From Treponema brennaborense (GTDB lineage Bacteria; Spirochaetota; Spirochaetia; Treponematales; Treponemataceae), in contig JAMPCJ010000002.1 of NCBI GenBank assembly GCA_023666275.1, forward strand, positions 248,001 to 312,000: a stretch of DNA of 64,000 bases, read 5' to 3'. The notes under the pieces are model-generated. The model saw nothing but the letters and a program-made list of their open reading frames with translations, was not told the origin of the DNA and ran no database searches. Each line of letters begins with the position of its first letter. Position 1 is the first letter of the stretch. This document shows, one piece after another, positions 21,377-52,769 of the stretch. A program made the translations under genes and the position numbers.

Positions 21377-21471
21377 GGAAAAAACATGCTTTTTTTCTTG
21401 ACAGCAATTCGTTTTTATCAAATAATAAATCAGTCTGTATATTCAGACATAATTTTTAATGGAGGTTTTTT

Positions 21472-22041
21472 ATGAAAAAACTCTTGGCAATACTGGGGGG
21501 GGGTATACTGGCATTCGCCGCGGCAGGCTGCGCTTCCAACAAAGTAGCGCCGGCACCGGCAGAAGAAGCTGCACCCGCACCGGCTGAAGCGGCAGCGCCG
21601 TCGATTGCACCGACGACAGAAGTCAAAACAGTTGTTTTCTCCGGAAAAGAACTGAAAATTTCGATTGCGGATATGTCATTGACTAACTGCGAAATTGTTC
21701 CGGATCCGAAAGCCATGAACGGCAAAGCGGTAAGACTGCTCGGCGACGATTCGACAGCAAAAATCAATATTACAATTCCGAAAGGCGAATACACCGGTCT
21801 TGTAAATGAAAACGCACCCGACGGTGCTCATGATGCATTTTATGTGCAGCTCGGAGAAACATATTTCCGCTGCTATCCGTCTGATCCGCCGATCGGCGAC
21901 TATGAACTGACGGAACGGAACCCGATGGCTATCGATATTGCAGAAGATGCAACACTCGAAATGATTGTGCAGCCGCACAGCCCGTCCCGCAAAGGCGAAT
22001 TCGGAATGCTTCTTGATTACGTCATAATTACAAAAGACTAA
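21472..22041 (+). CDS. Treponemal-type lipoprotein with a G9 tract in its signal peptide
   Basis: A 189-residue lipoprotein. The signal peptide (1-20) ends in a lipobox FAAAGC, with Cys21 predicted to be lipidated. A low-complexity Ala/Pro/Glu linker (about 26-48) tethers a beta-rich domain (about 50-189) whose pattern (NGKAVRLLGDD, AFYVQLGETYFR, GMLLDYVIITKD) resembles galactose-binding/CBM-like jelly rolls; this fold assignment is inferred. Codons 8-11 are encoded by nine consecutive Gs (21495-21503). Losing or gaining one G gives a premature stop shortly after, so expression may be phase-variable. GGAGG precedes the start and a strong terminator follows. Confidence 0.88.
   Translation: MKKLLAILGGGILAFAAAGCASNKVAPAPAEEAAPAPAEAAAPSIAPTTEVKTVVFSGKELKISIADMSLTNCEIVPDPKAMNGKAVRLLGDDSTAKINITIPKGEYTGLVNENAPDGAHDAFYVQLGETYFRCYPSDPPIGDYELTERNPMAIDIAEDATLEMIVQPHSPSRKGEFGMLLDYVIITKD
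21495..21503 (+). repeat. Homopolymeric G9 tract inside the lipoprotein signal peptide
   Basis: Nine Gs starting at the third base of codon 8. With G8 the frame meets TAG at the AAAGTAG segment near the lipobox; with G10 it meets TGA in the Ala/Pro linker. Both slippage products are truncated. Confidence 0.95.
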
Positions 22042-22070
22042 TCGGTTTTACATAATACGGAGAAGCCGTA

Positions 22071-22114
22071 AAAAACGCTTCCGGTTGACAAAAGTCTGCC
22101 GGAAGCGTTTTTTT
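22071..22114 (+). terminator. Strong terminator after the lipoprotein gene
   Basis: A5, perfect 9-bp stem CGCTTCCGG/CCGGAAGCG (22076-22107), then T7. It can also work for the opposite strand, downstream of asnA. Confidence 0.92.
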
Positions 22115-24784: not shown

Positions 24785-24865
24785 GCGAGAGTGGTGAAAT
24801 TGGCAGACACGCCAGACTTAGGATCTGGTGCCTTAGGCGTGAGGGTTCAACTCCCTTCTCTCGCA
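24785..24865 (+). tRNA. tRNA-Leu (anticodon TAG)
   Basis: An 81-base cloverleaf with 7-bp acceptor stem GCGAGAG/CTCTCGC, anticodon stem CCAGA/TCTGG with loop CTTAGGA (anticodon TAG, reads CUN codons), a variable arm typical of class II tRNA, T arm GAGGGTTCAACTCCCTT, and discriminator A. The 3' CCA is not encoded. Confidence 0.97.
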
Positions 24866-24931: not shown

Positions 24932-25003
24932 GCGGGAATAGCTCAGTGGTAGAGCGCCACCTTGCCAAGGTGGATGTCGCGGGTCCGACTCCCGTTTCCC
25001 GCT
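24932..25003 (+). tRNA. tRNA-Gly (anticodon GCC)
   Basis: A 72-base cloverleaf with acceptor stem GCGGGAA/TTCCCGC, D arm GCTCAGTGGTAGAGC, anticodon stem CCACC/GGTGG with loop TTGCCAA (GCC), T arm CGGGTCCGACTCCCG, discriminator U. The 3' CCA is not encoded. It is co-transcribed with tRNA-Leu 66 bases upstream. Confidence 0.97.
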
Positions 25004-25013
25004 CTAAATGAAG

Positions 25014-52760: not shown

Positions 52761-52769
52761 CCCCCCCCC
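52761..52769 (-). repeat. Homopolymeric G9 tract (minus strand) upstream of XRE-cupin copy A
   Basis: Nine Cs on the plus strand, in the gap between synthetase B and regulator A, about 140 bases before the ATG at 52623. Poly-G tracts near treponemal promoters alter transcription by slippage. Confidence 0.85.

Follow-up and report, generated by a model that had tools for sequence, protein, structure and literature searches.

Most work on poly-G switching in treponemes has concerned T. pallidum, a bacterium that is hard to grow. In Neisseria, the opa genes, which encode surface proteins, are translated or not depending on pentamer repeats within their signal-peptide codons. For T. pallidum, 17 tracts of at least eight Gs were tested and 76% varied in length, with promoter activity changing according to that length (PMC7864442). 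The tprL tract, for example, ranges from G7 to G11, with G9 being the commonest form (PMC7864442), and frame-changing tracts have been noted in T. pallidum ORFs as well (PMC3373638). A survey of Treponema species counted G/C runs of at least seven bases and found widely differing numbers (PMC8049484); in contrast to the analysis given below, the passages of that survey considered here contain neither a sorting of tracts by gene position nor a hump in their length distribution.

The locus described here, a lipoprotein gene with nine consecutive Gs near its start, lies in a window (i.e., the whole stretch of DNA that was analysed) of 64 kb, and is of a known kind, namely that of contingency loci and of the poly-G genes of T. 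pallidum; the position of the tract in a signal peptide is its special feature. It resembles the T. pallidum poly-G genes tprE/G/J, tprL, and tp0126 in the base that is repeated, the length class (at least eight Gs, commonly nine), and the bacterial family (PMC7864442, PMC3373638), and promoter tracts of the tp0126-like spacer type are found elsewhere in the window genome as well. Unlike the best-studied T. pallidum cases, whose tracts are in promoters, the window tract sits inside codons 8-11, in the signal peptide. This arrangement is reminiscent of Neisseria opa, where a repeat in the signal-peptide coding region likewise serves as a translational switch of a surface protein, although the opa repeat is a pentanucleotide and its product an integral barrel, whereas the window gene has a mono-G tract and encodes a lipoprotein. 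The scale also differs, with 17 targets analysed in T. pallidum versus 71 tracts in the window genome. No direct precedent for tracts in treponemal lipoprotein signal peptides was found in the open-licence literature, outside of which most subscription papers fall. On the sequence evidence presented below, we consider it likely (probability roughly 0.8) that the window gene is a contingency locus, in which slippage at the G9 tract would turn a lipoprotein resembling carbohydrate-binding modules (CBMs) on and off.

The lipoprotein gene and its G9 tract

The gene is an ATG-initiated ORF at positions 21472-22041 of the forward strand that begins MKKLLAILGGGILAFAAAGCAS and, as supported by its translation and homologues, encodes a 189-aa lipoprotein, its frame being open with the tract as recorded. 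Its product has the hallmarks of a bacterial lipoprotein, i.e., a signal peptide with a lipobox and its cysteine (MKKLLAILGGGILAFAAAGC), made up of MKKLLAILGGGILAFAAAG plus lipobox cysteine C20 (21472..21531, + strand), with Cys20 invariant in both alignments; an Ala/Pro/Glu-rich linker of low pLDDT follows the lipid anchor (21532..21609, + strand). The G9 tract, the proposed slippage switch, occupies 21495-21503 (+ strand) with a T on either side and spans codons 8-11 (CTG GGG GGG GGT), exactly as originally described from the sequence. The tract lies in the slippage-prone length range and exceeds chance; the 64-kb window contains four overlapping G8 8-mers (equivalent to two G9 tracts) versus 0.36 expected. 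By in-silico translation of G6 through G12, the frame is open only at G6 (188 aa), G9 (189 aa), and G12 (190 aa), with predicted products of 37 aa at G7, 24 aa at G8, 38 aa at G10, and 25 aa at G11. A one-base change thus alters the frame on translation, and the early stops that the original prediction had foreseen at G8 and G10 are borne out by peptides of 24 and 38 aa, respectively, versus 189 aa.

Upstream of the gene, a likely promoter (TTGACA, a 17-nt spacer, and AATAAT; 21398..21426, + strand) matches the consensus at 11 of 12 positions and is devoid of a G tract, and a ribosome-binding site, GGAGG (21461..21465, + strand), precedes the ATG by 6 nt. Downstream, a strong intrinsic terminator consisting of a hairpin and a T-run (22070..22113, + strand; folding energy -30.8 kcal/mol, z -6.7) closes a single-gene transcription unit. 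On one side, the gene is flanked by a divergent grpE-dnaK-dnaJ heat-shock cluster, and on the other by a convergent gene resembling asparagine synthetase, both identified by reading of the translations. Further along, tRNA-Leu (tag; 24785-24865) and tRNA-Gly (gcc; 24932-25004) genes separate the lipoprotein region from a trigger-factor-like/clpP/clpX cluster, named in the same way.

The G9 tract could alternatively act on transcription, as the spacer of a promoter within the ORF, TTGGCA-(atactGGGGGGGGG)-TATACT, whose hexamers match the consensus at 10 of 12 positions, much as other tracts of this genome sit in likely promoter spacers. We set this reading aside as extremely unlikely, given that the spacer is just 14 nt, a better promoter is present upstream, the ribosome-binding site and ATG lie ahead of the tract, and the start is conserved; the closest homologue begins at the same Met-Lys-Lys, and the lipobox cysteine is common to all aligned sequences.

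The second G9 of the window (52761-52769, minus strand; 2462-2470 of locus L086) is intergenic; a gene on the minus strand that starts MNSQMKAVADRLKGLRDVL lies some 120-150 nt downstream of it. Hexamers of a promoter could not be clearly placed around this tract.

Long G-runs across the genome

G-runs were counted by exact length on both strands of the 2.35-Mb Treponemataceae assembly (18 contigs) to which the window belongs. There are 19 runs of G6, four of G7, 26 of G8, 35 of G9 (33 matching the exact pattern flanked on both sides, plus two at contig ends), eight of G10, and two of G11. Together with genome estimates for G3, G4, and G5 scaled from window counts (~21,550, 3,120, and 220, respectively), these numbers drop 5- to 14-fold per additional base up to G7 and then climb, yielding a bimodal distribution with 71 runs of at least eight Gs versus ~1 expected by extrapolation. 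A and T runs, by contrast, decay smoothly from length 3 to 10 with no hump in 309 kb of fetched sequence. Since the hump is confined in this manner to G-runs, and since GGG accounts for a mere 9.5% of glycine codons, the window G9 is one of a distinct tract class. The repertoire of ~71 putative switches is large and seemingly undescribed.

These counts bear directly on the reading that the tract is simply a chance run of glycine codons in a stable gene, with GGG GGG GGT encoding three glycines of the hydrophobic core and no switching taking place. The window gene is indeed in frame as recorded, a MutS homologue is present in the genome, and homologues keep the protein without the tract, all of which would fit such a view. 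At the observed usage of GGG, however, only ~0.9% of glycine triplets would be spelled in this way, no run of glycines is present here in homologues, and a chance origin would account neither for 71 tracts where ~1 is expected nor for the near-absence of G7; we therefore regard a chance run as very unlikely. Because a MutS homologue is present, the tracts are not explained by loss of MutS, and mismatch repair may limit slippage.

Among 195 members of the family, the number of flanked G9 tracts per genome ranges from 0 to 57. Several other Treponemataceae genomes combine many G9 tracts with few G7 runs, including G012 (20 and 1, respectively), G116 (44 and 2), G199 (45 and 5), and G214 (57 and 4), and similar phasomes therefore probably exist in other lineages.

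Location of the tracts and the genes that carry them

When the tracts were sorted on the basis of their surrounding sequence, two designs emerged, with many of the remaining tracts assigned to neither. In the first, the tract is part of a lipoprotein signal peptide or comes shortly after it, as in genes for BspA-type LRR proteins, pectate lyases, a GH5 cellulase, and the window protein. Fifteen gene-start tracts, mostly of lipoproteins, could be assigned a state. Eight are in frame as recorded (the window gene, L064, L075, L079, L087, L100, L104-2521, and L111) and seven are one base out (L069, L089, L091, L093, L104-4309, L107, and L110-8813), with the state of L104-4309 hinging on a choice between two ATGs, of which the paralogue-like start puts it out of frame. 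Such mixed states within one assembly are the expectation for a set of random switches.

The BspA-type LRR lipoprotein paralogues are particularly informative. Their upstream flanks are 82-100% identical and yet the tract at the same site is G8, G9, or G10 in different copies; the run evolves faster than its flanks, an indirect sign of slippage in this genome. The family with near-identical signal-peptide sequence around G8-G10 comprises L069, L071, L073, L104, L107, and L109.

Homopolymers are prone to error, and it might be argued that the tract lengths are artefacts of assembly, such that the in-frame and out-of-frame states are not biological. Four further tracts are located at or adjoining contig ends; two contigs, C8 and C18, terminate right at an LRR-family tract, and C4 just past one. 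Some of the out-of-frame calls could well be homopolymer assembly errors. As a general explanation, though, an artefact has only a very small chance of being correct: the hump is missing from A and T runs of equal length, errors would not select the signal peptides and promoter spacers at which tracts recur, and a one-base error alters the state of a tract, not its existence.

In the second design, the tract lies between the -35 and -10 hexamers, e.g., TTGACA-ctaCCCCCCCCCgtgc-TATAAA, which precedes genes belonging to one family; among these, L065 has a match to an outer-membrane barrel. Six promoter-spacer tracts score at least 10/12 against TTGACA/TATAAT, versus 0.4 in shuffled flanks. C9 runs in near-consensus spacers (TTGACA...TATAAA) were noted at L064 (1937-1945), L065 (4959-4967 and 6969-6977), L076, L092, and L067, where they precede outer-membrane-type or lipoprotein genes.

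The sampled tract genes prominently include ones with surface and carbohydrate functions. Pfam matches include BspA LRR (L069, L104, L107, and L109), pectate lyase (L075, L091, L100, and L111), GH5 cellulase (L087), outer-membrane beta-barrel (L065), CotH (L067), transglutaminase-like (L103), GDSL lipase (L068), and acyltransferase (L101) families, while a few tract neighbours are ordinary cytoplasmic genes. The four pectate lyases and the cellulase carry G8-G9 at their starts in mixed frame states. Finally, an internal tract splits the frame of L084, a chemotaxis receptor by Pfam; this G9 (2344-2352) in a methyl-accepting receptor with a Cache domain could represent a chemotaxis switch.

Homologues and origin of the tract

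Many Treponemataceae have homologues of the window protein; its profile finds matches in 93 of 274 genomes, with the weakest matches confined to the signal peptide. In ~30 homologues inspected over their first 100 bases, no G-run exceeds three, compared with nine in the window gene, and the aligned homologues lack a glycine run at the tract position. The closest of them is 68% identical and comes from a genome (G018) without any flanked G9. A scan of named genomes with the single protein as query gave no matches; with the alignment as query, it recovered nine relatives, which come from MAGs that are for the most part labelled Treponema, and no tract is present in any of the nine. Homologues fused into longer proteins yielded no informative partner domain.

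Homologues without the tract had been named in the original prediction as one observation that would speak against phase variation. They do exist, as the ~30 sequences show, but every one of them comes from another genus; because of this, and because the closest genome lacks flanked G9 tracts, they point to a recent gain of the tract as opposed to an absence of switching. Most simply, an older lipoprotein would have acquired the tract in a lineage-specific manner.

Predicted fold and candidate ligand

The window protein has no significant match among Pfam, NCBIfam, or PDB sequences, and no Pfam family is hit at E values up to 10, although profile methods may miss membership. An AlphaFold2 model built from nine sequences is confident for residues 47-189 (21610..22038, + strand; pLDDT mostly 80-97) and predicts a beta-sandwich domain of the CBM6/35/36 superfamily type. 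Foldseek matches this model to CBM35, CBM36, and CBM6 modules (E 1.6e-6 to 1e-4), and VIA gives Z 14.8 to 3zm8 and 13-14 to CBM36/CBM6/CBM35 structures, including Z ~13 to 4qb2 and 2w47, which are CBM35s that bind glucuronate and unsaturated galacturonate. What had been described from the sequence as a beta-rich domain of unknown ligand can thus be narrowed, with regard to its fold, by Foldseek and VIA. Insecticidal Cry proteins also appeared in the structure match lists and were discarded, as one Cry domain shares the common sandwich and nothing else is toxin-like. While the predicted fold resembles that of CBM35, CBM36, and CBM6 (3zm8, 1w0n, 5fui, 2w47, and 4qb2) with Z 13-15 across ~120 residues, those modules are attached to enzymes, whereas the window protein is a stand-alone lipoprotein with ~10% identity to them and no Pfam match.

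Going by the model, the gene product is likely a carbohydrate-binding surface lipoprotein, with the conserved loop YPSxPPxGxxELTxR as a candidate ligand site. A Bacteroides CBM6/35-like module has been reported to bind polygalacturonate (PMC9843283). For the window protein, the presence of four pectate lyases among the tract-bearing genes makes a pectic or uronic-acid ligand attractive as a guess.

Proposed mechanism and biological significance

The gene would be transcribed alone from its own constitutive-looking promoter. Slipped-strand mispairing at G9 in the signal-peptide codons would add or remove a G at high frequency. With G9, the open frame would yield the lipoprotein, presumably surface-exposed, with its CBM35/36/6-like and probably carbohydrate-binding domain, and with G8 or G10 only a peptide of 24-38 aa would be made, leaving the envelope without the lipoprotein. 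This putative switch would be one of the ~71-tract set, acting on translation where the tract is in a signal peptide or coding region and on transcription where it is in a promoter spacer. The initial proposal of a phase-variable lipoprotein gains strong support from a tract that is not due to chance, the loss of frame upon a one-base change, the mixed states among gene-start tracts, and the length differences among paralogues.

More tentatively, and at somewhat less than even odds, this lineage may use its poly-G phasome of ~71 switches, with lipoprotein signal peptides reused as the switch site, to shuffle its carbohydrate-facing surface, that is, the LRR adhesin-like lipoproteins, four pectate lyases, a cellulase, and the CBM-like lipoprotein of the window, such that individual cells would bind and degrade different plant or host glycans. 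If this is true, switching would hedge bets in feeding no less than it would help to evade immunity. A simple test for such phasomes, needing only a genome sequence, is to look for plentiful G8-G9 runs with hardly any G7. A treponeme with ~71 G-tracts, many of them at lipoprotein starts, would allow slippage rates to be measured and would let one ask why surface proteins, polysaccharide-degrading enzymes included, are switched.
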